Source: an uncultured Prevotellaceae bacterium
GTDB lineage: Bacteria > Bacteroidota > Bacteroidia > Bacteroidales > Muribaculaceae
Assembly: GCA_946410125.1 (NCBI GenBank)
Contig: CAMJZF010000022.1
Coordinates: 1-32,125, forward strand
Length of the DNA stretch: 32,125 nucleotides
Direction of reading: 5' to 3'
Part shown: positions 3,213-31,394 of the stretch, one piece after another
Layout of the letters: every line of letters begins with the position of its first letter
How positions within the stretch are numbered: the stretch's first letter is position 1
Made by a program: the position numbers and the translations under genes
The notes under the pieces: model-generated
The model's input: only the letters and a program-made list of their open reading frames with translations
What the model was told of the DNA's origin: nothing
The model's database searches: none

Positions 3213-3245
3213 GTTGCCGTTAAACGTTTATCGTAGCACGGCAAC
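3213..3245. terminator. Candidate bidirectional stem-loop between convergent ychF and cotH-like genes
   Basis: Perfect 8-bp inverted repeat GTTGCCGT (3213-3220) / ACGGCAAC (3238-3245) between the two convergent stops. The 17-nt loop contains the palindrome TAAACGTTTA. There is no clear T-run, so termination is plausible rather than shown. Confidence 0.4.
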
Positions 3246-3268
3246 TGAGAACTGCCAACTGAAAACTC
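3241..3268. repeat. Heptamer repeat array, NNAACTG family (4 units)
   Basis: Four units in perfect 7-base register: GCAACTG, AGAACTG, CCAACTG, AAAACTC. The array ends 1 nt before the stop codon of the minus-strand CotH-family gene and overlaps the right arm of the stem-loop at 3213-3245. Confidence 0.7.
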
Positions 3269-3269
3269 C

Positions 3270-5039
3270 TTACCGATTGCCGAGCAGTATATCATATATT
3301 GCAGTGACGTCGGCACTGGTAACATGGCCGTCGCCATTGATGTCGCTGGTGCTCAGGAAACTGTCATTCCCAGTCAGTAGGTAATCATAGATGGCAGTGA
3401 CATCGGCGCTGGTGACATAGCCGTCGGCGTTGACATCGCCTGTGGGAATGCGCCATTGCTCATCAAGCCAGTTGTATTTGTTGTGTAAATAGTTCTTAAA
3501 TAAATCTCGGTCATAGAAAATGCCAGCATTACCATACAGTGGCCACTTTACAGCATCGCATTGAGCTGCTTGGGAAATTTGGTCAATAAAGCTGTCAATA
3601 AAATCATCAATACCATCGTAATGTTGCATGCTAAAACGCTGCCAATGCTTCCTAACCACTTGCTGAAAATGCGGGAATTTGGCTATCTCAGCAATCCACG
3701 TCAGAGAGTAGATAGGACTGTCGTAAATAAATTTGTTGGAATTACCACGACCAAAAGCGTTGCCGAAGTCCCATACAGGCCCAAATAACATCTTTGTGCT
3801 CGCTCCTTTTTCCTTATGCCAGAAACAGCTACCGTGGAAAGACTCGGTATTGTCAAGTAACTCTTGAACAATATAGAAGCAAGCTAAAGTGTCGACATCG
3901 ATATATTTTTCCCAACTATTGTCGGCCTTATCAGCTACATAGATAGTAGAGTCGGTAGTGTTGATTAGATCGGTTAGGTAGATACGTTGCTCGTCGCTTA
4001 GGTTTTCTGGCGATTTATAGGTAGAGTTAATAAATTGCCAGTTGCCTTCAATTGTATGAATTTGACCTTCATCTTCATAATAATTGTCAATTTCTACCAG
4101 CCATCCTCCGGTAATAAGAGTACTGTCGGTCTCATAGTCGGCTTGCTTGGTCACGTTTACTCGGTTAGGTTCTACACGAATTGTCTCGGTGAGCATATAA
4201 AGCCCAATATATTCACCATTTAACACCACTTCCACTGGTTGTTGAGATGGTGTCCATGCCAGTCCAATTCGTCTACTTACTTCAAAGCCCACAGTGTTTC
4301 GTAGGAACCCTAAATAATCATCGGCATTAGCCATCAGTGCCCAATGCTTGTTAGGATTCATTCCTAATAGTGCTGTCTTCTTGTCAAGTTTGATGCGATA
4401 GGGCTTTTTGTCGAAGTGGGTCCAAGTATAGTTTCCGCGTCCGCGAATCTGCATAAGTTGTGGAGCATCGGCAGACCCAATACTATTGATGCCCTCAATA
4501 CCCATATTATCAATATAATAATCGGCATAGATATATTCATCTTTTGAGGTTATAGGAATAGAATAATCTGTATTTATGAACATCACTGGAAGAGTTCCTG
4601 AATAGGATGATGAATCACCAAGCTGCAACCAGGCTCCAGATGCCAAGTTGTTTCCACTGTCGGGAGTGAACACCCATCCCACAGGGATGGCGAGATCGCA
4701 AGTAGTGGTGTGCTTCTCGTTTCGTGAGGAGATGGTATTCATTAGGTTCGGAAAAGTCTCATTTAAAATTCCATCGGGAATGGTGGTCTCGGCAAAGCAA
4801 TATTGATATATTTCGGATACTGTATTGGGGATATTGATACTCCAATAGTTGTTACCTTCACGAGTCATAGTTATTACATAGCTTTCGGAATTAGAATAAC
4901 TGCCAAAAACAAACTTCACGTGAGAGAACTGTGGGAGTGAGTTGTTGAAGTAAAACTTACCCTTAGGAATGTCAATCGCGCTGGCTCTAAAAGTTACTAT
5001 TATGAACAAAAGGATACAAATCTGGCTGATTTTTTTCAT
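3270..5039 (-). CDS. Secreted CotH-kinase-family protein with C-terminal dockerin-like repeats
   Basis: 589 residues from the chosen ATG. A signal peptide (residues 1-21, probable cleavage after RASA) is followed by an N-terminal beta-rich region (about 25-90, FYFNNS ... GNNYWSINIP) that resembles small starch-binding-type modules; that resemblance is inference. The CotH domain (PF08757) spans about 160-470: RGRGN 199-203, KKPYRIKL 211-218, LLGMNPNKHWALMA 224-237, LRN 246-248 and WDFGNAFG 423-430. CotH proteins in spore formers are atypical protein kinases that phosphorylate surface proteins. The C-terminus holds two EF-hand-like dockerin type I repeats (534-555 and 566-586, DVNADGYVTSADV and DINGDGHVTSADV). 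The longer open frame to 5210 is rejected because it runs back into the upstream glycosyltransferase; the signal peptide begins at 5039. It is last in the radical SAM-GT4-CotH unit (28-nt gap), so the substrate may be a surface protein or glycan made by this locus. Confidence 0.88.
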   Translation of the reverse strand: MKKISQICILLFIIVTFRASAIDIPKGKFYFNNSLPQFSHVKFVFGSYSNSESYVITMTREGNNYWSINIPNTVSEIYQYCFAETTIPDGILNETFPNLMNTISSRNEKHTTTCDLAIPVGWVFTPDSGNNLASGAWLQLGDSSSYSGTLPVMFINTDYSIPITSKDEYIYADYYIDNMGIEGINSIGSADAPQLMQIRGRGNYTWTHFDKKPYRIKLDKKTALLGMNPNKHWALMANADDYLGFLRNTVGFEVSRRIGLAWTPSQQPVEVVLNGEYIGLYMLTETIRVEPNRVNVTKQADYETDSTLITGGWLVEIDNYYEDEGQIHTIEGNWQFINSTYKSPENLSDEQRIYLTDLINTTDSTIYVADKADNSWEKYIDVDTLACFYIVQELLDNTESFHGSCFWHKEKGASTKMLFGPVWDFGNAFGRGNSNKFIYDSPIYSLTWIAEIAKFPHFQQVVRKHWQRFSMQHYDGIDDFIDSFIDQISQAAQCDAVKWPLYGNAGIFYDRDLFKNYLHNKYNWLDEQWRIPTGDVNADGYVTSADVTAIYDYLLTGNDSFLSTSDINGDGHVTSADVTAIYDILLGNR

Positions 5040-5067
5040 CTTGGTATATTTTATTAGACGTTTTTTA

Positions 5068-6150
5068 CTATTCAAGTACTTCCTTGTAAACATCAAGCGT
5101 TTGCTTGGCGATGTTGTCCCAATTGTAATTTGAGAGGTCGTACTGTTGTAGCTTGAACTCCTTTTTAAGAGCATTACCAATTCCATTAGCGAGAGCATCG
5201 CTGTTGGCAACTTTCACATAGTTGTCATTGGGGAGCTCAATAAGATGTGTCGCGGGAATGTCCGTTACAACGAGTGGCAACTGGTAACTCATAGCTTCGA
5301 GCAGAACAAGAGGGAATCCCTCGTTGACCGAAGAAAGAACATAGAGGCGGGCGTGGCTATAGAGCTGACGCAAATCTTCACCCTGAGTATATCCGGTGAA
5401 GATTACCTTGTCGTTCCAATCGAGTTTCTTGAGTTGCTTGAAATAGCTGTTGTCATGGTCGCTGGCACCTGCAATCACCAAGTGCTCAACCTCATCAAGT
5501 TTGTTGACCGCTTCTACAAGATATTCAAAACCTTTCTCGGGTGTGAGCCTTCCTACCGATAGGATGAAGCTGCGAGGCTGTAAATTAAGTCGTCGCAGTA
5601 ATCCGGTACTTCGTCCAATCTTTGTCTTATTGATGCCATTTGGAATGAATACCGACTTGGCAAGAACCCTATCGCTGAATTTTTCTCGTTGAAAACTATT
5701 AACGAATATAATCTTAGTGGCGTAGCTAAGAGAAATTTTCTCCGATAATTTCAGGATTGCCCTGCTTATCCTTCCCCACTTCTTGTGCTCGTAATTAGGA
5801 CTATGATAGGTTAGAATGATGGGAATGCGGAACAGCTTGAGAAGAGGGGCAAACATACCTGGACCAATGTTGTGGATGTGTACTGCATCGGGGCGATGGA
5901 AGATGATGTGGATGCAGGCAAGAAAAGTGTGGATTACAGCCTCCAGACCCTTGATGCGGGTAGAAGGCAGGTCGACATACTCGGTGTTTTTGAACTTGCG
6001 TGCCGACACCTCGGTGAGATAGGGCTTGCGGCGATAGATGCGCAGTCGGTAGCTCTTGTGCATGCGAGTGTAGATGTTCTCGCAATGCATCTCAACACCT
6101 CCTTGTACACCTGGAAACCCTCTAACTCCTATCACCGAAATGATTTTCAT
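5068..6150 (-). CDS. GT4-family glycosyltransferase
   Basis: 360 residues, two Rossmann-like halves of the GT-B fold. The N-terminal half starts with the loop IGVRGFPGVQGGVE (7-20), typical of the DUF1972/rhamnosyltransferase-like branch. The C-terminal half carries SVGRLTPEKG (198-207) and the retaining-enzyme EX7E motif E277-E285 (NEGFPLVLLE). It should add a sugar from a nucleotide donor to a growing lipid-linked glycan on the cytoplasmic face of the inner membrane; donor and acceptor cannot be read from sequence. It lies 32 nt after the radical SAM gene and 28 nt before the CotH-family gene, without a promoter box between, so the three are probably co-transcribed. Confidence 0.92.
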   Translation of the reverse strand: MKIISVIGVRGFPGVQGGVEMHCENIYTRMHKSYRLRIYRRKPYLTEVSARKFKNTEYVDLPSTRIKGLEAVIHTFLACIHIIFHRPDAVHIHNIGPGMFAPLLKLFRIPIILTYHSPNYEHKKWGRISRAILKLSEKISLSYATKIIFVNSFQREKFSDRVLAKSVFIPNGINKTKIGRSTGLLRRLNLQPRSFILSVGRLTPEKGFEYLVEAVNKLDEVEHLVIAGASDHDNSYFKQLKKLDWNDKVIFTGYTQGEDLRQLYSHARLYVLSSVNEGFPLVLLEAMSYQLPLVVTDIPATHLIELPNDNYVKVANSDALANGIGNALKKEFKLQQYDLSNYNWDNIAKQTLDVYKEVLE

Positions 6151-6182
6151 CAGTGCCTGTCTCTCTTAGTGATTACAAAATG

Positions 6183-8703: not shown

Positions 8704-10350
8704 ATGAGAAACATGAAAAATATAAGATACAGTTTTGCCTTTTTGGCAATAATAGTTATTGCTACTGCCAGTGCAATGGCACGCACGGTAGAGATAAAGA
8801 TTAGCCAGTGCCCTAAGCCTTATGTTGAAAACCTAAGGAAAACGGTAGCAAAATTAAGCAATAATGATGAGTTTGTACTTGATTTTGATAAACCCGGTAA
8901 ATATGAATTTGATGGCTCTATCAAGTTCAGGTGTAATACGACAATTAAAGGATTGGGTCCTAATGCCACCAAGGTGATTGTGAGAGAAGGCTTTAATTCA
9001 GGAAAAAGCAAAATGAATGACGACACTTTTTTGGCATTTCATGGAAGCTCAAGTAAAAAAGTGAAAGTTGAAATTAAAAATGTTAGTTTAGAGTTAGCAC
9101 AACACAATGGCATCTTATGGGAGAAGGCCGCTAAGCTCCAAGTAAAAGTGTGGTATGGTGATGGTGTGTTAGTTGATAACGTTGTTTTTAAGTCAAGAGA
9201 CGCAGTCTTGACCAATCTTGACTTGAGGGAATGTGACAATGTTATAGTTCAGAATAGTGAGTTTGAAAATTACAACAATTGTGAGGCTGGTGGTTGTCTT
9301 TGGTCAAGAGGAAGTCAGAAGAATATAATTGTCAGGAATAATGTTTTTCGAAAATATGGTCATGACGAGGTTCTTGCTTTCTGGGGTGGCCGCAGTAATA
9401 GTAATGAGATTACCCAAATGAAAAATATTACCATTGAAGGTAACGATTTCTATTTTGGCAATAAAATTAAATCGAAAAACATTTTCAGTAAAGCTGTTTT
9501 TATTTGTATTTATCATTTTAAAGAGGATATTTTTAAAGTCCATAACAAATGTGATGTGGATAACATCGTGTTTAAAGACAACTCCATCACCATTGATGAT
9601 GTGGTGGCTCGTGACATTGCCTTTTTCTTTGATTCTCTGGCCGAAGTCGGGAAAATAAAATTAATTAATAATAAGATTACCAATACTACCAAGACTTCAA
9701 CTACATCAAATTATTTGAATGACATAACCCTACAGGCCTCTGGAAATGTTAAATATCCTATTGTTATTAATGACAACACTGTTGAAAATCATGGTGAAAT
9801 CCTTGGTTACGGCAATAATAGCGGATATACATTTGTGTCGTTAAAGGATGTTGATGTGAGTATGGAAGGAAATGTTGTGGAGAGTGATTATGGCGTGGGG
9901 TTTTTATGGTGCCATGCAGGCTCAATGAACATTACACTGCTTAATAATAAAGCTTCTAACTTGTATAAAACAGGTATTCTTGGGTCAAGCGAGGGGGATA
10001 GTAAGGTGATGATTACTGCAAGTGGTAACACATTTAGTGGTGACACACGAATAACTTGCAAAAATGTCAAGGATTTACAATTAAACTATAAAAATAACAC
10101 TCTGAATAGTACGGGCTATCATTTCTTCTTGCAGGAAGGTGCTGAGCAAACTTCAATTAATTTTGAGAACAATATTGTTAATTCTTTAACAGGCAAAGGT
10201 AAAATCTTTGCTAATTATAGTGGTAAACAATGTGATTTCAGTAATGTGAATATATCAAACAATACATTCAATGGTCTTAAAAAGGCCGACATTGTAGAAC
10301 CACTTAATAAAGCAAGAAATATTCAAATTAATAATAATATTTACAGATAA
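8704..10350 (+). CDS. Secreted right-handed parallel beta-helix protein
   Basis: 548 residues (545 if translation starts at the second ATG, 8713). A signal peptide covers about residues 1-26, with probable cleavage after ASAMA. From about 60 the protein is built of repeating short strands rich in asparagine and valine/isoleucine, such as NVIVQNSEFENYNNCEAGG, NIIVRNNVFRKYG and NITIEGNDFYFGN, the asparagine-ladder pattern of pectate-lyase-like parallel beta-helices. Such proteins are polysaccharide lyases, hydrolases, epimerases or plain binding scaffolds; catalytic residues could not be assigned. It resembles the periplasmic modifying enzymes of exopolysaccharide loci, such as the AlgG/AlgE type, by position and fold class only. 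The gene is visibly more AT-rich than its neighbours. GT2 follows 13 nt later, so the two are probably one transcript. Confidence 0.82.
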   Translation: MRNMKNIRYSFAFLAIIVIATASAMARTVEIKISQCPKPYVENLRKTVAKLSNNDEFVLDFDKPGKYEFDGSIKFRCNTTIKGLGPNATKVIVREGFNSGKSKMNDDTFLAFHGSSSKKVKVEIKNVSLELAQHNGILWEKAAKLQVKVWYGDGVLVDNVVFKSRDAVLTNLDLRECDNVIVQNSEFENYNNCEAGGCLWSRGSQKNIIVRNNVFRKYGHDEVLAFWGGRSNSNEITQMKNITIEGNDFYFGNKIKSKNIFSKAVFICIYHFKEDIFKVHNKCDVDNIVFKDNSITIDDVVARDIAFFFDSLAEVGKIKLINNKITNTTKTSTTSNYLNDITLQASGNVKYPIVINDNTVENHGEILGYGNNSGYTFVSLKDVDVSMEGNVVESDYGVGFLWCHAGSMNITLLNNKASNLYKTGILGSSEGDSKVMITASGNTFSGDTRITCKNVKDLQLNYKNNTLNSTGYHFFLQEGAEQTSINFENNIVNSLTGKGKIFANYSGKQCDFSNVNISNNTFNGLKKADIVEPLNKARNIQINNNIYR

Positions 10351-11320: not shown

Positions 11321-12214
11321 TTATATCAGACCTAATGATTCTTTTATCATGATTTGAGTCATAAGCGTTGCCCCGTCATCGTTAAGATGATCGGAGTCGT
11401 TGAAATATCGATGGCGATTGTTGAAGAACAACGGATGGCATCCGTAATCTTTTAGCATTACGTTTTGTTGGCGGCAAAAATCATTCATCCATACCTGGAA
11501 TGGTGCAGTCACTTCAAGGGAAGGAGCAATATAGACATAGAGCTTTATATCGTTTTCCCTGCAGGTCTTAATTATTTCCTCAAAACATTTAACTTGAATA
11601 GAATTAGTCTCAAAATCAGTGAAATTGATGATTGCTGTGTCGGTGAGATTTCCGTATAGTGGTTCATATCCATCGCAGTCATGAATGGGTATTGTGTGAG
11701 CTTTTGCCATCCATGTGAGCGTAGAGTTAAGGCGGTAGAGGTTACTGTAAAGCTTAGATTTCAGTTGCCAAGTTCCATAGTCATTAATATAGTTGGTAAG
11801 TGGCTTGTTGAGACCGTAAAAGTGCTTTATATCATCTATGCTATTGTTAAGCCAGACACTGGTGACCATCGCTGCGCAAGCATCAAGAATGACAACTTGC
11901 GGCTTGCACCGCTCGAGAGTCGATTGCAAAACAATCATTGCGTAGTTCATTCCATGTCCATCAATGCCTGCATTATAGGCTGTCATTCCAGTGCTGTCGG
12001 CAATCATCTTTGGCTGGAAAGTGTGACGTGCCCTTGAAGAGCCGAGGATTAGTACATCACATTTCTTCTTGAACAGTGCCTGAAAGGCATCGGTTTGCAG
12101 AGTGCCCACCTCAGGAGTGTTCATGAGCATCTTGTTCCCGATGAGCCCAGCTGCTATGTCGCATAATGCTACAACTGCCAAAATAATTATTATGTTGATA
12201 ATAACCCTCTTCAT
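11321..12214 (-). CDS. SGNH/AlgJ-like acyl-transfer partner of the MBOAT protein
   Basis: 297 residues. The N-terminus has one membrane helix (about 4-26, mostly I/V/A/L), so the protein is anchored with its domain outside the cytoplasm. SGNH block I is LGSSRAR (57-63, likely nucleophile S60), block II is NAGIDGHG (81-88), and the terminal block is D273-S-D-H276 (FNDSDHLNDDGA). This is the SGNH-hydrolase-like fold of AlgJ/AlgX/DltD-type proteins, which move acetyl or other acyl groups from an MBOAT protein to a polymer outside the membrane. The MBOAT gene lies 9 nt upstream in the same operon, which supports polymer O-acylation. Acyl group and polymer are not known. Confidence 0.85.
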   Translation of the reverse strand: MKRVIINIIIILAVVALCDIAAGLIGNKMLMNTPEVGTLQTDAFQALFKKKCDVLILGSSRARHTFQPKMIADSTGMTAYNAGIDGHGMNYAMIVLQSTLERCKPQVVILDACAAMVTSVWLNNSIDDIKHFYGLNKPLTNYINDYGTWQLKSKLYSNLYRLNSTLTWMAKAHTIPIHDCDGYEPLYGNLTDTAIINFTDFETNSIQVKCFEEIIKTCRENDIKLYVYIAPSLEVTAPFQVWMNDFCRQQNVMLKDYGCHPLFFNNRHRYFNDSDHLNDDGATLMTQIMIKESLGLI

Positions 12215-19763: not shown

Positions 19764-19871
19764 CGCAGTTTTTTTTAGATTTATCGGTCTTGACGGCAAA
19801 AAAGCAATATCTAAAACGGAACTATATCGAATAAAAAGCCATGAAATATCTGATTGTAAATAAAAAATATA

Positions 19872-19879
19872 TATTTTTG
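19872..19879 (+). promoter_or_regulatory. -7 promoter box (TATTTTTG) for the acyltransferase gene
   Basis: TATTTTTG lies inside the longer open frame that starts at 19841 and 31 nt before ATG 19910. It therefore favours 19910 as the true start. Confidence 0.6.
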
Positions 19880-19909
19880 CACCAGCGTTACGTTAAGTTT
19901 TGTTTCGGT

Positions 19910-20965
19910 ATGACGATATTAAGTGACGAGTATGTAAAGCACAACAGCGGAGCAATTGACCTGCTGAAATTAGTACTGGCGATATTAGTGGTAGGCATTC
20001 ACACCACGCCGATGGGTTTTGGGTGCCGACCATTGTTCCGTGTAGGCGTTCCGCTGTTTTTCATGATTTCGTCCTATCTGTTTTTCCTCAAGCAGGGGAC
20101 TTGCGCAACGGCCCTTGAGCGCAGGAGGCAGCTGGTGAGGAGCGTGAGGCGCATCATGAAGCTGTATCTCTTTTGGTTCGTAATACTGTTGCCTGTAACG
20201 TTGCGAATAAGGTTTTTCTCGAAACAGCAAGACTTTGATATATGGGTCGACGGTGTGCAAAGGTTCTTTTTCGACAGCACCTTCTTGGGGTCGTGGTATC
20301 TGATGGCATTGGTTATAGGCATTGCCGCCGTGTGGTTCTTAAGCGAGAAAAGGGTTCATGATATTTGGATTTTGGCATTGGGCATTTTATTGTATGTTTT
20401 GTGTTGCATGACCAGCGTTTATCGCCCTCTCGTTGCCAATGTCCCCTGGTTGGAGCAAGTTTTGATACCTTTTGAAACGGTGATATTGTGTCCTCACAAC
20501 AGCTTTGCCGCGGGAATTCTTTTCGTGGCAACCGGAAAGATGCTGGCACAGCGTTCGTTTCACATTCCCAATGCTGTGTTGATAACGATGGCCCTGGCGT
20601 TGACAGTTCTGCTCTATGGTGAGCATTACGTGGTGAAAAGCCTGTGCGTGGTAACCAGTGATGATTGCTATCTCATGCTGCCGCCACTGTGCCTGTGCCT
20701 GCTGGTGCTGGTGGGGCAGAACACCAAGCTAAAACTGAATTTCGACACAAGGCCTCTTAGGGCATGTTCCACAATCGTTTATTGTTCTCACATTTCGGTC
20801 GCTTATTGCCTGAACATTGTGCTCAACCGTTTTGTGGAAAAAGAATCTGCAATTTATTATGTGTTATTATTCTCTGTAACTCTGTCGCTTGCATTGTTGC
20901 TCAGTTATGTTTTGCTGAGGCTTGAAAAGCGTGATTCTCTACATTGGCTCAGGTTCTCTCATTAA
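19910..20965 (+). CDS. Acyltransferase family 3 membrane protein
   Basis: 351 residues with about 10 hydrophobic segments. The first helix has the family arrangement D17-x13-H31 (DLLKLVLAILVVGIH), followed by FRVGVPLFFMISSYLFF, which together mark Acyltransferase_3 (PF01757). These proteins transfer acetyl or other acyl groups to sugars, lipids or peptidoglycan at the inner membrane; OatA, OafB and WcaH-locus acetylases are relatives. The gene is divergent from the wzx operon and stands alone, so it may act on the same polysaccharide as a second, independent acylation system. The start at 19910 is chosen from the promoter at 19872. Confidence 0.86.
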   Translation: MTILSDEYVKHNSGAIDLLKLVLAILVVGIHTTPMGFGCRPLFRVGVPLFFMISSYLFFLKQGTCATALERRRQLVRSVRRIMKLYLFWFVILLPVTLRIRFFSKQQDFDIWVDGVQRFFFDSTFLGSWYLMALVIGIAAVWFLSEKRVHDIWILALGILLYVLCCMTSVYRPLVANVPWLEQVLIPFETVILCPHNSFAAGILFVATGKMLAQRSFHIPNAVLITMALALTVLLYGEHYVVKSLCVVTSDDCYLMLPPLCLCLLVLVGQNTKLKLNFDTRPLRACSTIVYCSHISVAYCLNIVLNRFVEKESAIYYVLLFSVTLSLALLLSYVLLRLEKRDSLHWLRFSH

Positions 20966-20995
20966 TTCAAGTATAGGAAGTAACCGAACCTTGAA

Positions 20996-21038
20996 GGTTT
21001 AACGGTTAACGGTTACAGGTTAACGGTTACAGGGTTAA
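20996..21038. repeat. Heptamer repeat array, GGTTAAC/GGTTACA family
   Basis: GGTTTAAC (8 nt), then units in 7-base register: GGTTAAC, GGTTACA, GGTTAAC, GGTTACA, GGGTTAA. It lies in the gap between the convergent acyltransferase and glutaminyl cyclase genes and joins directly to the next array. Confidence 0.75.
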
Positions 21039-21041
21039 TTG

Positions 21042-21076
21042 TGCATTGTGCATTATGCATTATGCATTATGAATTA
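21042..21076. repeat. Heptamer repeat array, TGCATTR family (5 units)
   Basis: TGCATTG, three TGCATTA and TGAATTA in perfect 7-base register. The same family recurs at 22085-22182 and 31360-31394. Confidence 0.75.
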
Positions 21077-21110
21077 AAAACTAAAAACTGATTACTGACA
21101 ACTAATAACT
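21076..21110. repeat. Heptamer repeat array, NNNNACT family (5 units)
   Basis: AAAAACT twice, GATTACT, GACAACT, AATAACT in perfect 7-base register. The array overlaps the 3' end of the minus-strand glutaminyl cyclase gene: the stop codon (21102-21104) and the last codons lie in it. Confidence 0.7.
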
Positions 21111-22070
21111 GTAGATGACATTGGCTACGGTTTGCCCCACTGCTTTGAGCACTCCCTTGTCAATCCAGTGCAGCGTGTCGTCGATAGTGTGCCATCCTGC
21201 AAAGAAACCTGTGTCGCTGTCTTGACGTGTATCGATAATGTCGATACACTGGATTCCCATCTTATTGACTACGATATGATCGTCGGTGATGGCACCGCCC
21301 AGATTGCTGTCAAAGTAGTTGCCATAGCCACTCTCACGGGCGATATTCCACACCTCATTGACTACGCTTGGAGCATATTGCATCGACATGATTTCCTTAC
21401 CAAACCGGGCGCCTTTAGCTCCCACCATGTCAAGGAGTATTCCAAACCGTGCCGAATAGCCTGTTACATGAGGATTCTTTGCCCAGTATTGAGTGCCCAG
21501 AGCCCAGGAGTCCTCGTTTTCATTCTCTCCCCAATCTTCGGCATCAACAAGCAAGATGTCAACACCTATGTTTGGACGGTTGTCTTTCATGATGTGGGCC
21601 AGTTCCAGCAATACTGCCACTCCGCTGGCGGCATCGTTGGCTCCCATCACTGGCTCTTTGCGCTTGGCGGGGTCGGGGTCATTGTCAGCCCAGGGACGGC
21701 AGTCCCAGTGGGCGAGCAGCAAGATGCGGTTATCGCTGGCGGGATTGAAGGAGCCTATAAAATTCTTGATATTTAGCGTCTTGCCATCAAATGTGGTAAC
21801 CTGTGCTTCCTGCACGATAACGCTGTCGCAAGTCTCGCTGAGCGACTGTTCGAGCCATTGTGCACACTTGCTGTGGGCGGGTGTGCCAGGCACGCGAGGC
21901 CCGAAATCGCACTGGGTTTTCACAAGGTTGTAGGCATTGTCGCCACTGAAATCAACGGTGACGGTTGCGGTTGTGCTTTCACTCGATGCGCTGCTGTCGC
22001 TCGCCTGCTGTTGTGACTTGCAACTCAAGAGGGCAACTAAAGCTAAAGATAAGAAAAGAATAAATCGCAT
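21102..22070 (-). CDS. Glutaminyl cyclase, M28-fold zinc lipoprotein
   Basis: 322 residues from ATG 22070. A short lipoprotein signal ends at C17 (ALLSCKS), then a low-complexity S/T/Q linker. The M28/glutaminyl-cyclase fold follows: AHWDCRPWADNDPD (120-133), zinc ligand D146 in GANDAASG, the acidic pair E178-D179 (DAEDWG), SWALGTQYWAK (188-198), DDH at 263-265, and W293-H294 (GWHTIDD), the equivalent of the Trp-His pair of animal glutaminyl cyclases. It converts N-terminal glutamine of exported proteins to pyroglutamate in the periplasm. Plain aminopeptidase activity is less likely given WHT. An alternative ATG at 22088 lies in the heptamer array and would add six residues before the signal. 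Its stop is inside another heptamer array. Confidence 0.88.
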   Translation of the reverse strand: MRFILFLSLALVALLSCKSQQQASDSSASSESTTATVTVDFSGDNAYNLVKTQCDFGPRVPGTPAHSKCAQWLEQSLSETCDSVIVQEAQVTTFDGKTLNIKNFIGSFNPASDNRILLLAHWDCRPWADNDPDPAKRKEPVMGANDAASGVAVLLELAHIMKDNRPNIGVDILLVDAEDWGENENEDSWALGTQYWAKNPHVTGYSARFGILLDMVGAKGARFGKEIMSMQYAPSVVNEVWNIARESGYGNYFDSNLGGAITDDHIVVNKMGIQCIDIIDTRQDSDTGFFAGWHTIDDTLHWIDKGVLKAVGQTVANVIYSY

Positions 22071-22084
22071 GTGATATAAATAGA

Positions 22085-22182
22085 GCATTAAGAATTATGC
22101 GTTATGCATTATGAATTGTGCATTATGAATTGTGCATTATGCATTGTGCATTATGCATTGTGCATTGTGCATTGTGCATTAA
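22085..22182. repeat. Heptamer repeat array, GCATTRT family (14 units)
   Basis: Fourteen consecutive units in unbroken 7-base register: mostly GCATTAT and GCATTGT, with GAATTAT, GAATTGT, GCGTTAT and terminal GCATTAA variants. The array fills nearly the whole gap between the nadB stop (22183) and the glutaminyl cyclase start (22070), and begins at the base after the nadB stop codon. Confidence 0.85.
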
Positions 22183-23775
22183 TTAAAGCTTTAGGTCTTC
22201 TTCGTTTTTGGGCTTGGGAGGATAGTCGATGGTGTAGTGCAGTCCTCTTGACTCCTTGCGCTCCTTGGCCTGGCGCATAATCAGGTAGCCCACGTTGATG
22301 ATGTTGCGCAACTCGCAGATGCGACGGCTCACGGTACTCTCCTTGAAGAGTTTCTCGGTCTCTTCATAGAGGATGTCAAGGCGGTTCCATGCGCGGTCAA
22401 GACGCAGGTTGCTGCGCACAATGCCCACGTAGGCGCTCATTATCTCGCCTACCTCTTTCTCGCTCTGGCTGATAAGCACCATTTCCTCGGGATGCTGGGT
22501 CCCCTTGTCGTTCCATTCGGGGATGTCGGTGCGATAGTCGTAGTGGTTGTGGCAAGCTATGGCATGACGAGCGGCTGCGTCGGCATAGACTACAGCCTCA
22601 ATCAGTGAGTTGCTGGCAAGGCGGTTGCCTCCATGCAGACCGGTGCAGGAACATTCGCCCACGGCGTAGAGTCGCTCAATCGATGAGCAGGCATTAAGGT
22701 CGACTTTAATGCCACCGCACAGGTAGTGTGCAGCCGGCACTACAGGGATAAAATCCTTGGTGATGTCGATGCCTATTTCAAGGCAGTGCTTGTAGATGTT
22801 GGGGAAGTGGTGCTTGGTCTCCTCGGGGTCCTTGTGGGTCACATCAAGGAACACATGGTCCTCGCCACGCTGTTTCATCTCGCTGTCGATGGCGCGTGCC
22901 ACCACGTCGCGGGGGGCAAGCGACAAGCGTGGGTCATACTTTTGCATGAATTCCTCGCCGGCAAGATTCTTGAGCACTGCACCGTAGCCGCGCATCGCCT
23001 CAGTGATGAGAAATGCGGGACGGTCGCCTGGATGATAGAGGGCGGTGGGATGGAACTGGATGAATTCCATGTCTTGCACTGTGCCTTTGGCACGATATAC
23101 CATGGCAATGCCGTCGCCTGTGGCGATAAGCGGATTGGTAGTGGTGTGGTATACCGCTCCGGCACCACCTGTTGCCATAAGGGTTACGCGCGAGAGGAAA
23201 GTGTCGACCTTTCCTGTGTCCTGATTCAAGACATAGGCTCCATAGCACTGTATGTCGGGAGTGCGGCGGGTTACAATTTTGCCAAGGTGGTGTTGTGTAA
23301 GTATTTCAACAGCAAAGTGGTTGTCAAATATGTCAATGTTTTTGTGAGCTTTTACTGCCTGGATGAGCGACTCTTGAATCTCATGCCCGGTGTTGTCGGC
23401 ATGATGCAGGATGCGGAATTCGCTGTGGCCGCCTTCGCGGTGCAGGTCAAAGTCGCCCTTTTCGTTCTTGTCGAAATCTACGCCCCAGTCAATAAGGGCC
23501 TTAATCTGTTCGGGAGCCTTGGTGACAACTTGCTCTACGGCTTTGGGGTCGTTGAGCCAGTCACCAGCTACCATAGTGTCATGAATGTGTTTCTCAAAGT
23601 TGTCAATCTCCATGTTGGTGACACTTGCTACGCCTCCTTGAGCCAGGTCGGTGTTGGCTTCATCAAGGGTGGTCTTGCACACTAAAGCCACCTTGCCTGT
23701 GCCGGCAACTTTCAGGGCAAAGCTCATTCCAGCCACGCCCGAACCTATAATTAGATAGTCATATTTGTAAGTCAT
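22183..23775 (-). CDS. nadB: L-aspartate oxidase (NAD biosynthesis)
   Basis: 530 residues, normal for NadB. The FAD-binding dinucleotide motif is GSGVAGMSFAL (12-22). Substrate and FAD regions characteristic of the succinate dehydrogenase/fumarate reductase flavoprotein family are present: DLAQGGVASV, HREGGHSEFRILHHADNTG, MEFIQFHPTALY, RDVVARAID and GLHGGNRLASNSLIEA. NadB oxidises L-aspartate to iminoaspartate, which NadA condenses with dihydroxyacetone phosphate to quinolinate. HREGGHS with no quinol-oxidase C-terminal features supports NadB over FrdA/SdhA. nadA and nadC are not nearby. It starts 32 nt after the PBP gene stop with no promoter box between, so it is probably read through from the PBP promoter. 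Confidence 0.96.
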   Translation of the reverse strand: MTYKYDYLIIGSGVAGMSFALKVAGTGKVALVCKTTLDEANTDLAQGGVASVTNMEIDNFEKHIHDTMVAGDWLNDPKAVEQVVTKAPEQIKALIDWGVDFDKNEKGDFDLHREGGHSEFRILHHADNTGHEIQESLIQAVKAHKNIDIFDNHFAVEILTQHHLGKIVTRRTPDIQCYGAYVLNQDTGKVDTFLSRVTLMATGGAGAVYHTTTNPLIATGDGIAMVYRAKGTVQDMEFIQFHPTALYHPGDRPAFLITEAMRGYGAVLKNLAGEEFMQKYDPRLSLAPRDVVARAIDSEMKQRGEDHVFLDVTHKDPEETKHHFPNIYKHCLEIGIDITKDFIPVVPAAHYLCGGIKVDLNACSSIERLYAVGECSCTGLHGGNRLASNSLIEAVVYADAAARHAIACHNHYDYRTDIPEWNDKGTQHPEEMVLISQSEKEVGEIMSAYVGIVRSNLRLDRAWNRLDILYEETEKLFKESTVSRRICELRNIINVGYLIMRQAKERKESRGLHYTIDYPPKPKNEEDLKL

Positions 23776-26477: not shown

Positions 26478-26490
26478 AGTGAATGATAAG

Positions 26491-27160: not shown

Positions 27161-28381
27161 TCATTGCAGGCGACGGCGCATGATGGTACTGGTCACGAGC
27201 GATGTCACGAAACCTATCGCAGCCACAAGCAGCAATACTATCAAGATATCGGTCCACACCACTTGTACGGGATAAGAACTTACCACCACTTGCGACGGGT
27301 CGGCACTGAGTTTTAACCACCCAAAGGTCTGCTGTCCAAGGCACAGTAGCAGTCCCAGGATTATGCCCAGTACAGCTCCGAGCATGGCAATCAGCCATCC
27401 TTCGGCCACAAAGATGCGTGTAATCTGCTGATTGGTGGCACCAAGATGCTGAAATGTAGCTATGCTCTCATCTTTCTCTATGATAAGAAGCGACAGGGTG
27501 CTGATGACGTTGAAGGTGGCTATGATCATGATGAAAGCCAGCAACAGGAAGGTTACCCATTTTTCTACATTCACCATGCGGAACGATTCGGACTGTTGCA
27601 TGAGCCGATTCTTCACTAAATAGCTGTCACCAAGCATTTTTTCCAGTTGCTTCATCACCGAGGTCTCGTTGGCGCCGGGCTGTAGTTTTATCTCTATTTG
27701 TGTGGCTTGGGTGTCGTAGTCAAAAAGGTTGCGTGCAAAATCAAGGGGGACAAAGATAAGATCTTGGTCATAAGAGTTTTGCTGTACTTGAAAGATTGAC
27801 GAAACAAACAATGAGTCACACATGAAGGCATCAATAGGGTTGGCGATGTTGACTCGTCCCACGCGTTTGGGCGCATAGAGCTGCAACATTCGCAAGCTGT
27901 TGGCTCGTAGGCGAAGGTTCACGGCAGGCCCTATGCCCACAACGGCAAAACTCGACACATCATCTTTCAAGGCATAGTAGCCATCAACGATTGTGCTGTC
28001 TATGGCATTGATTTTGTGATAGTTGGCGGGAACGCCTTTTAGCCTGACGGGCATTTGATAGTCGGCATATATGGCAAGAGCCTGGTCTTCAAGCACTGGC
28101 ATTGCCATTGCCACACCATCTGTTGTCTTTATAGCTTGGATTACGCTGTCGGCATCGGCGATGGTCTTGCCGTGAGCAGGCATGATAGCCACTTGTGGGT
28201 CGAGGCGAGCCAGGCGGTCTTGTATCACACCTTTGAAACCATTGAAAACGCTTAGCACACACACGAGTGCGGCGGTTGTCACCACCACTCCACAAATGGA
28301 AATGATGCTGATGATGTTGACTGCGTTGTGAGCCTTTTTAGATTTTAGGTAACGCAGTGCTATTTTCAATGGCAGTGACAC
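27161..28381 (-). CDS. FtsX/LolC/E-type ABC transporter permease
   Basis: 406 residues with the four-helix MacB/FtsX layout: one helix near the N-terminus (about 22-47, IISIISICGVVVTTAALVCVLSVFNGF), a large periplasmic domain (about 50-265), then three helices (WVTFLLLAFIMIIATFNVISTLSLL; WLIAMLGAVLGIILGLLLC; ILIVLLLVAAIGFVTSLV). The start RYLKSKKAHNAVNIISIIS is typical of LolC/LolE-like lipoprotein-release permeases. No ATPase gene is adjacent. It follows rbfA with a gap of 104 nt that contains a heptamer array, an order commonly met in Bacteroidetes. Lipoprotein release is the best guess but the substrate is not proven. Confidence 0.88.
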   Translation of the reverse strand: MSLPLKIALRYLKSKKAHNAVNIISIISICGVVVTTAALVCVLSVFNGFKGVIQDRLARLDPQVAIMPAHGKTIADADSVIQAIKTTDGVAMAMPVLEDQALAIYADYQMPVRLKGVPANYHKINAIDSTIVDGYYALKDDVSSFAVVGIGPAVNLRLRANSLRMLQLYAPKRVGRVNIANPIDAFMCDSLFVSSIFQVQQNSYDQDLIFVPLDFARNLFDYDTQATQIEIKLQPGANETSVMKQLEKMLGDSYLVKNRLMQQSESFRMVNVEKWVTFLLLAFIMIIATFNVISTLSLLIIEKDESIATFQHLGATNQQITRIFVAEGWLIAMLGAVLGIILGLLLCLGQQTFGWLKLSADPSQVVVSSYPVQVVWTDILIVLLLVAAIGFVTSLVTSTIMRRRLQ

Positions 28382-28389
28382 GTCTTTTT

Positions 28390-28424
28390 AAGTATTAAGT
28401 TGTAAGTGTTAAGTAGTAAGTGAT
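28390..28424. repeat. Heptamer repeat array, AAGTNNT family (5 units)
   Basis: AAGTATT, AAGTTGT, AAGTGTT, AAGTAGT, AAGTGAT in unbroken 7-base register. It sits 8 nt before the permease ATG in the rbfA-permease gap. Confidence 0.75.
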
Positions 28425-28485
28425 AGAGCCATGAGTTTTTGAAGAAAATGCACTTAAAACATATTACTTACTATTTATTTATTGC

Positions 28486-28821
28486 TTATTTCTTTAGCAG
28501 TTCGTCGATGTGCTCGATATAGTCGAGTGAGTCATCTACATAGAATACCAGTTCAGGGGTCTTGCGCAACTGGTTTCTTACTCGTTGGGCAAGTGTGTAG
28601 CGTATCGTTTTAGTATTTTGATTCACGCCATCTACAATTTCTTGGGCACGTTCGCTGGGAAACACGCTCAGGTGTACGCGGGCAATGCTCAGGTCGGGCG
28701 ACACGCGCACATTGCTAACACTCACTATCACGCCACGCATCTTGGCGGTGTCTTCGCGGAATATCTCGCTTAAATCTTTTTGGATTAGTCGCTGTATTTT
28801 CTGTATTCTTGTTGATTCCAT
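28486..28821 (-). CDS. rbfA: 30S ribosome-binding factor RbfA
   Basis: 111 residues from the chosen ATG, normal for RbfA. It opens MESTRIQKIQRLIQKDLSEI, matching the family start; the KH-like core contains VSVSNVRVSPDLSIARVHLSVFP and ends in the family pattern LRNQLRKTPELVFYVDDSLDYIEHIDELLKK-type helix. RbfA helps mature the 5' end of 16S rRNA and is needed for cold adaptation in E. coli. A longer frame to 28848 is rejected because the promoter box at 28846-28853 overlaps it. It is first in a unit with the FtsX-type permease. Confidence 0.95.
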   Translation of the reverse strand: MESTRIQKIQRLIQKDLSEIFREDTAKMRGVIVSVSNVRVSPDLSIARVHLSVFPSERAQEIVDGVNQNTKTIRYTLAQRVRNQLRKTPELVFYVDDSLDYIEHIDELLKK

Positions 28822-28845
28822 AAATGTTACTATTACTAACTTATG

Positions 28846-28853
28846 CAAAGGTA
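28846..28853 (-). promoter_or_regulatory. -7 promoter box (TACCTTTG) for rbfA
   Basis: Minus strand TACCTTTG followed by C, an exact consensus match, with a leader of about 20 nt to ATG 28821. It rules out the upstream ATG at 28848. Confidence 0.68.
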
Positions 28854-29029: not shown

Positions 29030-29037
29030 TATCTTTG
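29030..29037 (+). promoter_or_regulatory. -7 promoter box (TATCTTTG) for the membrane protein gene
   Basis: Exact TAnnTTTG match; transcription would start near 29043, just before a G-rich hairpin (29051-29070). Confidence 0.62.
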
Positions 29038-29135
29038 TACACCGCCAAGACGGGGGCGTTTTTTCTCCCGTGTGTTCTTGTTTCATCACAAGGTGCGGTG
29101 AGAAAGAGAGTAATAGTAACAATTTTCCAAGACGA

Positions 29136-30623
29136 TTGAGCGATAACAAGATAAATAGAGCAGGCAACAGTCTGGGCAGCAAGGGTTTGTTGTTGCTTTT
29201 TGGTGAAGTGATGGCAATGGGGCTGGTGGGCGTCTATTCATCCACGCATTTCTCATTTGGCAACTCGATGAGTATAGTAATTGCCTTTGCTGTCGCTTAT
29301 CTTGTACCGCGTTTCATCTATTCAGGCAGCAAGGTGTCTTGCCGCTGGGGACAATGGACTCTGCTGCTGGCTGCCACAGCTCTGTCGGTTTACGCGATTT
29401 GTGAGTTTATAGCTTGGACTCCTGTTGCCGGATATTCACTGGAAATTCCTTATTTGACCGATGATAGTGAGGCTTATTACCGATGGGCTTTGTCGCATTA
29501 TGACGGTCGCTTCCCGGCTCCTGATATTATATATTCTGGCTTGCCAATCATTATGTTGGGGCTATGGAAGGTTTTTGGAGTAAATGTGGTGTGGCCTATG
29601 GCCCTCAACATCATGTTTATCCTTCTCACTATGGTGATGACTGGCAAGATTGCTCACCGCCTGCTAAGCCATCGTTTCCCTTCGGTCAATCCCGTTAACA
29701 TTGTGGCAAGCGCAATGTTGATGGTTGCATTGCTGGGGTTCTTTGTAGCACAGGGCATGAGAATTCAGAAGGAGAGTTATTGCTCACTGGGCTTTACCAT
29801 GGTTGCCTATGCCTTTGCCGGAATGACTGTATCTACTCTTAATAAGAGAGATAGGTACCGAGACCTGGTAATCTTCCTTGCTGGAACACTCCTCGTGGCT
29901 TTTATAAGAACCAATTTCGTCTACTTTATTTTTGTTGGAGCGGTAATGATGTCGCTTGCCGGCAAGTGTGCACGTTGGAAGCAAGGGATGCTGATGGCAG
30001 TCGTGGCACTATCCATCACATTCCTGTTTAACTACTTGTTCAGCTATACTATTGAACATCAGCTCCTTATTCTTGAGGGTGGCAAGGTTATGGCTAATGA
30101 TTTTGAATTGGGTAAAACCCAGCAGCCTTACCAAAACATCATTGGGGACTATTATTTCTATCCACAATGGAAGCGAGTGCTCATGCTGCCCATCACAATG
30201 GGTGTTCAATACATTATTCCTTTCCCTTGGATTTATGACTATAGCAATGCTACTGTCATGACGTTAATCCTGCACATGAGATTTATGTGGTATTTTGCGG
30301 GAGGAATGTGCCTTTTCTATTATTTATATTTAGCTGTTGTCCGTTACAAAACGTTCAGTCTTGGCATTTGGGCATTGTGGCCAGTGGTGATTTTCGTCTT
30401 CTTGGCATTTGCCACTGGAGGTCTCGTGGGGCGCTATTTCTTGCCCATTCAGCCCTTGTTTATAGTAATTGCACTGTATGTGATACTCCTTGTCAGGGAG
30501 GGACATTGCCGCCGGGCGTTCACTATTGGAATGGTGATATACTTGATTGTTCTTTTCGCAACATTTTTCTTCTGTTATTACACTCACGTCGGCTTTCTGA
30601 GAAGTAATAACTTGATATCTTAG
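29136..30623 (+). CDS. Multi-spanning membrane protein, possibly GT-C-type glycosyltransferase
   Basis: 495 residues from the proposed TTG start and about 11-13 hydrophobic segments. After the second helix the loop TDDSEAYYRWALSHYDGRFP carries acidic residues at the position where GT-C (ArnT/PMT-like) enzymes place their catalytic aspartate; that is a topological resemblance, not a firm family match. It may alternatively be a plain DUF membrane protein. Start: no ATG occurs until 29211. GTG 29070 is open but its first 20 codons look non-coding and overlap a G-rich hairpin. TTG 29136 follows an A-rich stretch and gives MSDNKINRAGNS before the first helix. It stands alone on the plus strand, convergent with the methyltransferase. 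Confidence 0.7.
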   Translation: MSDNKINRAGNSLGSKGLLLLFGEVMAMGLVGVYSSTHFSFGNSMSIVIAFAVAYLVPRFIYSGSKVSCRWGQWTLLLAATALSVYAICEFIAWTPVAGYSLEIPYLTDDSEAYYRWALSHYDGRFPAPDIIYSGLPIIMLGLWKVFGVNVVWPMALNIMFILLTMVMTGKIAHRLLSHRFPSVNPVNIVASAMLMVALLGFFVAQGMRIQKESYCSLGFTMVAYAFAGMTVSTLNKRDRYRDLVIFLAGTLLVAFIRTNFVYFIFVGAVMMSLAGKCARWKQGMLMAVVALSITFLFNYLFSYTIEHQLLILEGGKVMANDFELGKTQQPYQNIIGDYYFYPQWKRVLMLPITMGVQYIIPFPWIYDYSNATVMTLILHMRFMWYFAGGMCLFYYLYLAVVRYKTFSLGIWALWPVVIFVFLAFATGGLVGRYFLPIQPLFIVIALYVILLVREGHCRRAFTIGMVIYLIVLFATFFFCYYTHVGFLRSNNLIS

Positions 30624-30651
30624 ACCATAGTTGTCCAATAACGTGTTGCCG

Positions 30652-31293
30652 TCAATGCGTTTTCTTATACAAGACGGTTAACCCGTCGCGCAGTGGCAGG
30701 ATTACCGTCTCCACTCTTGAGTCGTTGGCAACCAGGTTGTTAAAGTCGAGGATGCCACGTGTTTGGTCATCCATCTTTTTGCCGTGAAGGTCGGTAACCT
30801 TGCCGTCCCACAGGGTGTTGTCGGCAATGATGAATCCGCCGGGCTTCACGTGCTCAATGACAAGGTTGAAATAGTCGACGTACTGTCGCTTGTTGGCGTC
30901 AATAAACACTAAGTCGAACTCGCCACCGAGTTTTGGCACAATTTCTTTACAGTCGCCAATGTGGAGTGTGATGCGGTTGCCAACCGGCGATTTCTCAAAG
31001 TGGCAGCGAAGGAAATCTTCTAATTCGTCTTCAATTTCAATTGTGTGGATGCGGGCATCGTCGGGCAGTGCCTCGGCAAGGCATTGCGTGGCATAGCCCG
31101 AGTAAGTGCCTAACTCAAGCACACGCTTGGGACGTATCATGCGCACGAGCATCTTCAACACACGCCCCTGCAGATGCCCAGAGCACATGCGCGAGTAAAG
31201 CAGCTCTATGTGAGTGTCTCGGTCTAATTCATGCAGATAATCGGGTTCGGCATCAATGTGAGCTAATATATAATCTTCAAGTTCTTGAGTCAT
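30652..31293 (-). CDS. SAM-dependent O-methyltransferase (family 3, COMT-like)
   Basis: 213 residues, usual length for the CCoAOMT/catechol-type family. The SAM-binding motif I is VLELGTYSGYAT (98-109 region of the ORF start frame, near residue 58), the acidic loop IHTIEIEDE follows, and the metal-binding region is FDLVFIDANKRQYVDYF with PGGFIIADNTLWDGKV, including the DAxK and DNTLW signatures. These enzymes methylate catechol-like hydroxyls using Mg2+. The bacterial substrate is not known. It is 83 nt downstream of aroQ in the same direction, with heptamer and GAGAGG repeats between, and has no promoter box of its own, so aroQ-OMT co-transcription is likely. Confidence 0.92.
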   Translation of the reverse strand: MTQELEDYILAHIDAEPDYLHELDRDTHIELLYSRMCSGHLQGRVLKMLVRMIRPKRVLELGTYSGYATQCLAEALPDDARIHTIEIEDELEDFLRCHFEKSPVGNRITLHIGDCKEIVPKLGGEFDLVFIDANKRQYVDYFNLVIEHVKPGGFIIADNTLWDGKVTDLHGKKMDDQTRGILDFNNLVANDSRVETVILPLRDGLTVLYKKTH

Positions 31294-31307
31294 AGTTTAA
31301 CAGAATT

Positions 31308-31360
31308 GAGGGGAGTGGTGAGAGGGGAGAGGTGAGAGTGAGAGGCGAGAGAGGTGAGAG
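31308..31360. repeat. GAGAGGN low-complexity repeat, mostly 7-base period
   Basis: Purine-rich tract: GAGAGGG, GAGAGGT, GAGAGT, GAGAGGC, GAGAGAGGT, GAGAG after a looser GAGGGGAGTGGT start. Units vary between 6 and 9 bases, so the period is less strict than in the other arrays. It joins directly to the GCATTRT array at 31360. Confidence 0.6.
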
Positions 31361-31394
31361 AATTATGCATTGTGCATTATGCATTGTGCATTGA
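31360..31394. repeat. Heptamer repeat array, GCATTRT family (5 units)
   Basis: GAATTAT, GCATTGT, GCATTAT, GCATTGT, GCATTGA in 7-base register. It overlaps the 3' end of aroQ: the stop codon at 31377-31379 and the last four to five codons (SMHNA) are repeat sequence. Confidence 0.75.

Follow-up and report, generated by a model that had tools for sequence, protein, structure and literature searches.

The DNA analysed here (the window) is a stretch of 32,125 nt, contig CAMJZF010000022.1 of the uncultured Prevotellaceae bacterium assembly GCA_946410125.1 (Muribaculaceae in the GTDB lineage), and its intergenic gaps carry tandem arrays of degenerate heptamers. By Pfam, the genes flanking these arrays are ordinary, encoding a CotH/dockerin protein, an acyltransferase, an M28 peptidase, a FAD-binding protein (22183-23775, probably nadB judging by its domains), an FtsX/MacB-type protein, RbfA, an O-methyltransferase and a type II dehydroquinase. 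The heptamer tracts, found with Tandem Repeats Finder (TRF), matches at lag 7, Open Reading Frames (ORFs) and Pfam, are as follows.

3241..3268, minus strand: AACTGNN array of about 3.7 units; it ends where the minus-strand CotH/dockerin gene (3270-5210) has its stop codon, and its inward (minus) strand reads AGTT.
20991..21038, plus strand: GGTTAAC/GGTTACA array (G-type), 25 nt past the stop of the acyltransferase gene (19841-20965).
21038..21076, plus strand: ATTRTGC array (family A) in the centre of a convergent gap, seen by TRF and lag-7 matches.
21076..21110, minus strand: ACTRANA array (family B), overlapping the stop codon of the M28 peptidase gene (21102-22088).
22084..22182, minus strand: ATTRTGM array of 13-14 units, spanning the entire gap from the M28 peptidase gene to the FAD-binding gene; the sense strand past the probable nadB stop reads AATKCAY.
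28386..28425, plus strand: AAGTNNT array (family C), lying directly against the FtsX/MacB-type gene (27161-28381) on its start side.
28463..28479, minus strand: short inverted partner ATTACTTACTATTTATT, close to the stop of rbfA (28486-28848).
31308..31360, plus strand: GAGAGGN tract (G-type), adjoining the start of the O-methyltransferase gene (30652-31293).
31360..31394, minus strand: ATTRTGC array that extends into the type II dehydroquinase gene (31377-31805) at its 3' end; the inward sense strand reads AATKCAY.

Tandem heptamers had been predicted from the sequence at all of these sites except 28463-28479, and TRF, lag-7 matches and dinucleotide shuffles bore out every prediction. TRF reported period 7 or 14 at 3242-3267, 20999-21038, 21038-21076, 21075-21111, 22085-22181, 28388-28421, 31308-31351 and 31362-31393. 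Bases identical at lag 7 amount to 14/21 in 3241-3268, 25/36 in the GGTTAAC/GGTTACA array, 26/28 in 21042-21076, 21/28 in 21076-21110, 73/91 in 22085-22182, 20/28 in 28390-28424, 31/46 in 31308-31360 and 23/28 in 31360-31394, and the top lag-7 score of each of the five window gaps was matched by at most 1 of 1000 dinucleotide shuffles. The weakest tract is 3241-3268 (3.7 copies by TRF) and the loosest is GAGAGGN, with a lag-7 score of 14.5 while lag 9 scores 10.5 in its gap. Altogether the window holds five word types: ACTRANA (including AACTGNN), ATTRTGM, AAGTNNT, GGTTAAC/GGTTACA and GAGAGGN. Between 21038 and 21110 family B carries on family A in exact 7-nt register through the series ATTATGC, ATTATGA, ATTAAAA, ACTAAAA and ACTGATT, so that the two “families” are a single array there; by reading, register is also preserved on a word change in a relative (L368:2535-2640). 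The Rfam search of the window gave no match at gathering thresholds.

In order to place these arrays in a wider context, we sampled 810,898 bases of the same genome (the window and loci L031-L070; hereafter the own genome), about one third of a 2.38 Mb draft that is 84% complete, together with 80 loci of relatives among the matches listed (1.48 Mb). Two sets came from viral_contigs: 160 loci among the matches listed, picked by two words, and 147 further loci among the matches listed, picked by two other, G-rich words. These scans listed at least 80 loci each. Since the viral_contigs loci were chosen by word, with G-rich words in the second set, their word frequencies and their contrast of G minus C are biased, the latter being sharpened in the second set. 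Discrete repeats were called in intergenic stretches with 30-nt flanks at a score threshold of 14.

In own-genome intergenic sequence, five-letter matches are 5.1 times as frequent as in mononucleotide shuffles at lag 7, 5.2 times at lag 14, 4.7 times at lag 21 and 2.9 times at lag 28; the ratio is 1.2-1.9 at lags 4, 5, 6 and 8 and 3.0-3.4 at lags 9, 10 and 20. The repeat calls number 29 at period 7, 11 at period 14 and 2 at period 21, against none at 5 or 6 and one at 8, and three mononucleotide-shuffled sets of the same stretches gave no call. Among the relatives' loci we counted 37 calls at period 7, 6 at 14 and 7 at 21 (6: 2, 8: 3, 9: 7, 10: 4, 11: 8, 18: 5, 22: 8). In the first viral_contigs set, more than 400 nt away from the picked array, the calls were 106 at period 7, 20 at 14 and 9 at 21 (5: 3, 6: 1, 8: 4, 11: 8); in the second set, picked arrays included, they were 234 at period 7 and 37 at 14 (5: 1, 6: 0, 8: 6, 9: 5). 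Thus the sharp excess of period 7 over 6 and 8 anticipated by the original prediction is found in the intergenic calls of the own genome and its relatives, and a constant unit length with differing sequences extends to the broad contig sample, where period 7 also leads. The expected intergenic bias was likewise confirmed: 50 of 71 own-genome arrays of period 7, 14 or 21 overlap ORFs by less than 60%, though about 91% of the sample is called coding. The own-genome calls at other periods (9: 8, 10: 9, 13: 3, 20: 5) indicate an additional, smaller component at 9, 10 and 20, a second set of intergenic repeats that a 7-nt process leaves unexplained.

The presence of many word families held up as well, with 60 distinct consensus words in 122 arrays; the words in viral_contigs are highly diverse and include GC-rich ones (CGGCTTT, AGTGGGC). 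Words vary by species and share a partly genome-specific vocabulary: 24.1% of 921 within-genome word pairs differ by at most one substitution, against 11.1% of 6435 between-genome pairs and 3.8% after letter shuffling (label permutation p 0.008). This kinship, together with the fixed orientation of each family relative to ORF edges described below, speaks against the proposal that the words are written independently of sequence. Array abundance per genome was judged from two word patterns alone, which gave 0-421 matches (ATTRTGM) and 0-562 matches (ACTRANA) across 37 genomes of the genus search. There were no period-7 calls in our samples of G004 (29 kb), G012 (74 kb; one period-21 call) and G029 (74 kb), and 13 in 100 kb of G009. 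Mismatches cluster in particular columns of the unit in 16 of 43 arrays (p<0.05); a neutral duplication-plus-mutation simulation gives roughly half as many strong cases as the data (26 vs 50 of 164 arrays). Word self-structure was no different from that of letter permutations (mean fraction 0.43-0.44), and the purine asymmetry of the words was near binomial expectation. tRNA anticodon loops were also tried as the word source, CTGATAA being what we take to be the Ile-GAU loop. They ranked post hoc at about 1% among column permutations in the first set, and were dropped when words new to the viral set gave p 0.64 for exact matches and 0.21 within one substitution.

With regard to placement, own-sample arrays number 17 in the 178 gaps between two minus-strand genes, 14 in the 117 between two plus-strand genes, 10 in the 84 convergent gaps and 1 in the 88 divergent gaps. 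The arrays abut ORF ends: where the free gap is 40 nt or longer, 17 of the 29 own-genome arrays reach a stop edge (5.5 simulated) and 6 a start edge (2.6 simulated), and the relatives' listed loci give 8 and 6 of 36 (3.4 and 3.5 simulated). Where an array lies within 12 nt of a stop edge (all sources), it most often begins between -2 and +2 nt from the ORF end. In the window, the original prediction that the tracts sit immediately 3' of minus-strand genes holds for 3241, 21076-21110, 22085-22182 and 31360-31394. It fails for 28386-28425, at the start side of minus-strand gene 27161-28381 and 60 nt off the next gene's stop, and for 31308-31360, which is closer to a start; gaps 3205-3269 and 20966-21101 are convergent.

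Each main family keeps a fixed strand running from the ORF edge into the gap, at starts and stops alike. The edge test covered 423 deduplicated arrays, and those touching one edge were scored for the strand that runs 5' to 3' inward. ORFs were greedy longest-ORF calls here and in the placement analysis. The counts exclude arrays lying mostly within ORFs, loci recognised as duplicates by common 25-mers or flanks, arrays in which AGT and ACT (or G and C) balance exactly, and arrays in contact with both edges or with neither. Scored by AGT minus ACT, the ratio of inward to outward is 81:10 at stop edges and 44:5 at start edges (24:3 and 22:2 in the own and related genomes alone, 57:7 and 22:3 in the other sources). 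By G minus C without family A, it is 81:23 at stops and 48:8 at starts. Family A (ATTRTGM) is equally fixed with the opposite base type, CAYAAT running inward in 25 of 26 cases at stops and 8 of 12 at starts. When single arrays were scored by side of the gap, AGT minus ACT gave 110:39. Because arrays from one genome are not independent, p-values are only guides; the effect points the same way in different sources and in data obtained once the rule had been fixed. In these new loci (the second viral_contigs set minus 26 arrays already seen or duplicated), the G-C ratio is 64:18 at stop edges and 24:10 at start edges, and the AGT-ACT ratio at stop edges is 34:5.

ORF calling may itself bias the polarity, since arrays without stop codons can be absorbed into ORFs. 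Against such an artefact, arrays closed in all frames on both strands still gave 18:1 at stops and 15:1 at starts. Array-free ORF edges follow the rule weakly or not at all. Their stop edges showed AGT:ACT inward counts of 190:200 in the own genome, 93:83 in G009, 216:173 in L092-L150 and 413:311 in the viral loci, and array-free start edges 316:152, 122:116, 290:218 and 358:403, respectively. By direct reading, the window arrays follow the rule: AGTT runs inward from the CotH stop, GGTT past the acyltransferase stop, AGT from the M28 stop, AATKCAY past the stops of the probable nadB and the dehydroquinase gene, and AAGT and GAGAGG from the starts of two minus-strand genes. The array at 22084-22182 also reaches a start edge at its opposite end, where it necessarily runs outward. 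Contig GC skew bore no clear relation to word orientation in the own sample, contig orientation being arbitrary, and 14 of the 17 family B arrays there were on the minus strand regardless of skew. In co-directional gaps, a comparison of orientation with the direction of transcription that took no account of edges showed no clear pattern.

Neighbouring arrays less than 150 nt apart tend to be inverted, with the G-rich word first and the C-rich word last, and the pairs often span the gap from stop to start. Before deduplication there were 64 inverted, 24 direct and 30 unrelated pairs, and after it 45 inverted, 9 direct, 25 unrelated and 1 tie. By consensus word, the deduplicated inverted pairs are G-first in 32 cases, C-first in 4 and even in 9; taken as per-source majorities, inverted outnumber direct 25 to 6 and G-first outnumber C-first 21 to 2. 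Pairs of unrelated words are G-first in 19 of 19 cases (13, 4 and 2 by distance class). With the rule fixed beforehand, the new loci yielded 31 inverted, 3 direct and 10 unrelated pairs and 1 tie, all 31 inverted pairs and 9 of the 10 unrelated-word pairs being G-first. Since the order extends to unrelated words, pairing between the arms cannot be its sole cause. In the own genome, 32 of 38 arrays are single. Arm consensus words lie within one substitution in 43% of 112 comparisons with the inverted word, against 27% of 2866 comparisons between other arrays of the same source, where the better strand was taken, a modest difference. Fold-back copying of one arm into the other was considered and rejected, as arms share no more 7-mers than other related arrays of the same source (mean 4.3 vs 5.5).

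RNA folds predicted for L375 and L369 repeat with a 7-nt rhythm, 5-bp helices alternating with 2x2 loops. In the window, the fold z-score is -2.96 for 20966-21115 (beating all 200 shuffles), -3.92 for 31294-31394 (beating all, for the ATTRTGC part only), -2.25 for 3200-3270, -1.63 for 28382-28485, where ATTACTTACTATTTATT pairs with the AAGTNNT array, and -0.07 for 22084-22182. The relatives' loci L369, L368, L375 and L380 gave -2.66, -1.92, -0.73 and +1.38. One contig, L273, encodes phage head and tail proteins (PHROG matches to Neck1, a head maturation protease and the major head and major tail proteins) and has inverted AGT-type/ACT-type arrays at 3678-3746, 9382-9439 and 11616-11687, the first pair occupying the gap between two co-directional ORFs.

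Orthologous gaps show turnover of the arrays. The gap 3' of the probable nadB was examined in 20 relatives. L079 has a long AATGCAY array resembling that of the window, L075 a 10-nt remnant, L080 a GTTTAGA array and L076 a short AGTTTTC-like stretch; in L083 the array switches from AAGGTTA to GAGAATA with register kept, L073 has 9-nt repeats (TTCCTTTAA units), and the remaining relatives have none by eye. In five orthologues of gap 28382-28485, the AAGT core is kept in L071, L072 and L076 (partly in L075) while the two variable letters differ, and L079 lacks the array. By eye, the AAGTNNT array and C-rich repeats of L072 and L076 are separated by an inverted repeat of high GC content (GGGACGA...TCGTCC), which looks like a terminator placed between two arms. 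The GAGAGGN tract is common to L075 and L076, two of four orthologous gaps. The gap past the orthologue of window gene 2104-3204 was examined in 29 of 30 loci, among them those of the own and the query genome. In 13 the gene that follows is the same as well, and in the rest, including the own genome, it differs. Of these 13 gaps, three carry both arms (G009, G024 and G018, with TTAGGNN, a centre and CCTAANN from the stop codon through to the next start), two carry one arm (CCTAANN in G006, TAGTNNC in G021) and eight have no heptamers (G002, G007, G017, G019, G020, G023, G025 and G026), G025 having repeats of a different period.

Enzymes and elements that might write such arrays were sought in 37 genomes each, 23 of them in the genus (own and 22 others). 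The reverse transcriptase domain RVT_1 was present in 16 of 37, including array-poor G003, G004, G012 and G014. An RVT_1 search, the only one made for such an enzyme and run on drafts, found no match in the own genome (84% complete), G008, G009 (94%), G011 (93%), G015 (99%) or G021, so that the gene needed for writing by a diversity-generating retroelement, retron or group II intron was not found in the own genome or several array-rich relatives. MutS_I occurs in 34 of 37 genomes, the own genome among them; the Y-family polymerase domain IMS was found in 32, Y1_Tnp in 34 and Ku in none. A second high-scoring Y-family polymerase gene occurs in array-rich G000:C55, G008:C187 and G011:C5; it is missing from G001, G009 and G010, which are just as array-rich, and from the other genus members searched; G004 has two fragments. 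A core, GCGGATGCC, recurs in G009, G024, G025 and G035, either flanked by heptad arms or next to one (itself or its complement at L368:2525 and 11259, L369:12372, L371:7683, L375:3488, L376:195, L395:3929 and L402:3571). In G009, G024 and G035, 14 of its 20 noncoding matches are near an array (one site double-counted), and it has no noncoding match in the 810,898 bases of the own genome. No conserved genome-wide core, as expected of repetitive extragenic palindromic (REP) or GTAG-tagged palindromes, was found in a search for the G009-type core only, and the centres differ within one gap. In addition, an intergenic unit bearing GCGGATGCCAATTA and repeats of the CTTTGCGT/CTTAGCG type occurs four times or more in L183:85-1480, the copies being arranged as two pairs 100 bp apart.

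The constant length of seven and the inward direction, in many bacteria and some viruses, suggest one directional writing process. We tentatively take the tracts to be heptameric arrays of the short tandemly repeated repetitive (STRR) type that arise by addition of heptads to 3' ends of intergenic DNA, a reading to which we give somewhat less than even chances. The 3' DNA end facing away from the flanking gene would grow as its last seven nucleotides are copied over and over, through slipped realignment of the end or a short template in trans. The setting may be the repair of intergenic breaks or gaps, like telomere-type break healing, for which the same strand type would be expected on both 3' ends; it is found there, family A being an exception in base content and not in fixity. 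Every round could displace further native spacer until purifying selection on the ORF halts growth; two healed ends joined face to face would give an inverted pair, and one healed end a single array. What favours 3'-end addition, with modest confidence, is that a strand-specific process at gap-facing ends would be expected to leave single arrays pointing inward and pairs meeting face to face, to consume native spacer and to halt at ORF edges, while slippage alone would scatter orientations and give direct neighbours, and selection for hairpins would not polarise single arrays or non-pairing arms alike. Of the original prediction of a single process with a 7-nt step, the sharp period, the many words, the intergenic bias, the turnover of gaps and the kept register are supported; sequence independence and a reverse transcriptase or retrohoming element as writer are not. 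A wider version, in which a telomerase-like activity without RVT_1 heals intergenic ends in bacteria and some phages with genome-specific heptamers and progressively replaces spacers up to the ORFs by face-to-face arms, seems to us unlikely.

Several observations weigh against 3'-end addition. The breaks and the extending enzyme are both postulated, and none of RVT_1, IMS, MutS_I, Ku and Y1_Tnp follows array abundance in the genomes listed; in the absence of Ku from all 37, the joining of ends would need another route. Family A has its C-richer strand inward and the ATTRTG strand outward, so “G-rich” is not a general cue. The side-of-gap test of single arrays gives 10:10 in convergent gaps, start-edge polarity is lower at divergent gaps (6:3), and start edges of the new loci by AGT-ACT are non-significant (8:3, p 0.11). 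Ordinary ORF edges are weakly biased in the same sense in some sets. Scored over whole arrays, noncoding inverted pairs are G-first in 26 cases and C-first in 6, and the own and related genomes alone show no significant excess of inversion (7 vs 5), all 7 being G-first. Paired arms have a common core and often differ in their variable letters. Finally, the arrays show no trend of age between the edge and the middle of the gap (38 vs 47 of 99 arrays, p 0.39). This lack of a gradient, the weak similarity of the arms and the missing candidate enzyme leave real gaps in the account.

Nearly as likely as 3'-end addition is replicative slippage with a preferred 7-nt step in neutral DNA, with orientation sorted later by selection at gene edges. 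No new enzyme has to be assumed for it. Mismatch repair is expected to overlook 7-nt loops, and MutS_I is widespread here; the neutral simulation reproduces part of the column pattern, and the weak bias of array-free ORF edges is in its favour. Slippage predicts neither the edge polarity nor the 31 of 31 G-first inverted pairs in new loci nor a genome-specific vocabulary, and under it periods 5, 6 and 8 should be less rare. We consider it rather improbable that the arrays act at the RNA level as arms of inter-cistronic hairpins or terminators whose orientation is kept by selection. The regular helices of L375 and L369, the z-scores of -2.25 to -3.92 at three window gaps and L369, GC-rich hairpins seen by eye between arms at several loci, and the pairs between co-directional structural genes in phage-type L273 all speak for such a role; single arrays and unrelated-word pairs are polarised likewise, L375, 22084-22182 and L380 fold no better than shuffles, the arms have mostly only cores in common, and most own-genome arrays have no partner.

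The remaining two explanations appear very improbable to us. A dedicated reverse transcriptase or retrohoming element writing heptamers from RNA templates, as the original prediction allowed, would account for a vocabulary supplied in trans, 3'-end polarity and the position-specific variable columns, but RVT_1 was not found in the own genome and five array-rich relatives, yet is present in array-poor ones. Equally doubtful is one dispersed mobile element or REP-type palindrome carrying all families, which had been named as an alternative: GCGGATGCC beside the arms in four genomes and the widespread Y1 transposases would suit it, while the core is missing from noncoding own-genome sequence, the centres differ in the same gap, and Y1 transposases also occur in array-poor G004 and G012.

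Among known systems, the closest are the STRR sequences of cyanobacteria (the heptanucleotides of Calothrix and Nostoc), which are degenerate, tandem, intergenic and present as several families per genome. The arrays described here share all of these features, with the 7-nt unit clearly above neighbouring lengths and the intergenic placement established in the own sample; they differ in their Muribaculaceae-type Bacteroidales host, in their words and in the inverted G-first pairs. Interstitial telomeric repeats and telomere fusions of eukaryotes combine G-strand polarity at 3' ends, face-to-face G-first/C-last pairs and a fixed unit length, all of which recur here. Unlike telomeric repeats, the words vary by species and within one array, and RVT_1 was not found in several array-rich genomes; to our knowledge, no telomerase is known in array-bearing bacteria.

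Two earlier reports come near to the edge rule. PMC4679880 describes TAACTGA direct repeats in Beggiatoaceae, cyanobacteria and five Bacteroidetes, 147 of 170 sets being directed at a start codon. Some of these genomes mix other heptamers into the same gaps, indels between two Cyanothece strains are mostly 7 nt, and the repeat, with only one inverted set in the main genome of that study, is read as a start-codon or translation signal (PMC4679880). Family B (ACTGATA) is the same word and the start-directed majority fits the edge rule, which here extends to stop edges and unrelated words. PMC4692102 mentions three tandem heptanucleotides in Calothrix PCC 7601 and describes GGGAATC/GGGGAYT of Xanthomonas and Nostoc, intergenic and ORF-abutting repeats that are almost always nearer the 5' neighbouring ORF whatever its orientation, and reads them via G-quadruplexes. 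That polarity is identical to ours, whereas most words here are too G-poor for quadruplexes. Both papers cite the slippage hypothesis already in print and Mrazek et al. 2007 for 7 nt as a polymerase contact length or step, and each reports pieces of the edge rule, unjoined. We found no published account of inverted-pair polarity in a literature search aimed at it, whose coverage mostly excluded subscription papers. Slippage by 7 nt is thus already published, and what is new here is the edge polarity at starts and stops alike and the G-first inverted pairs, neither of which was part of the original prediction. Heptamer arrays of cyanobacteria, Xanthomonas, Beggiatoa and Bacteroidetes have so far been recorded as separate curiosities (translation signal, quadruplex, slippage); one rule, a fixed strand inward from a start or stop edge, ties these records together, indicates one directional process and makes the question “why seven?” experimentally approachable.

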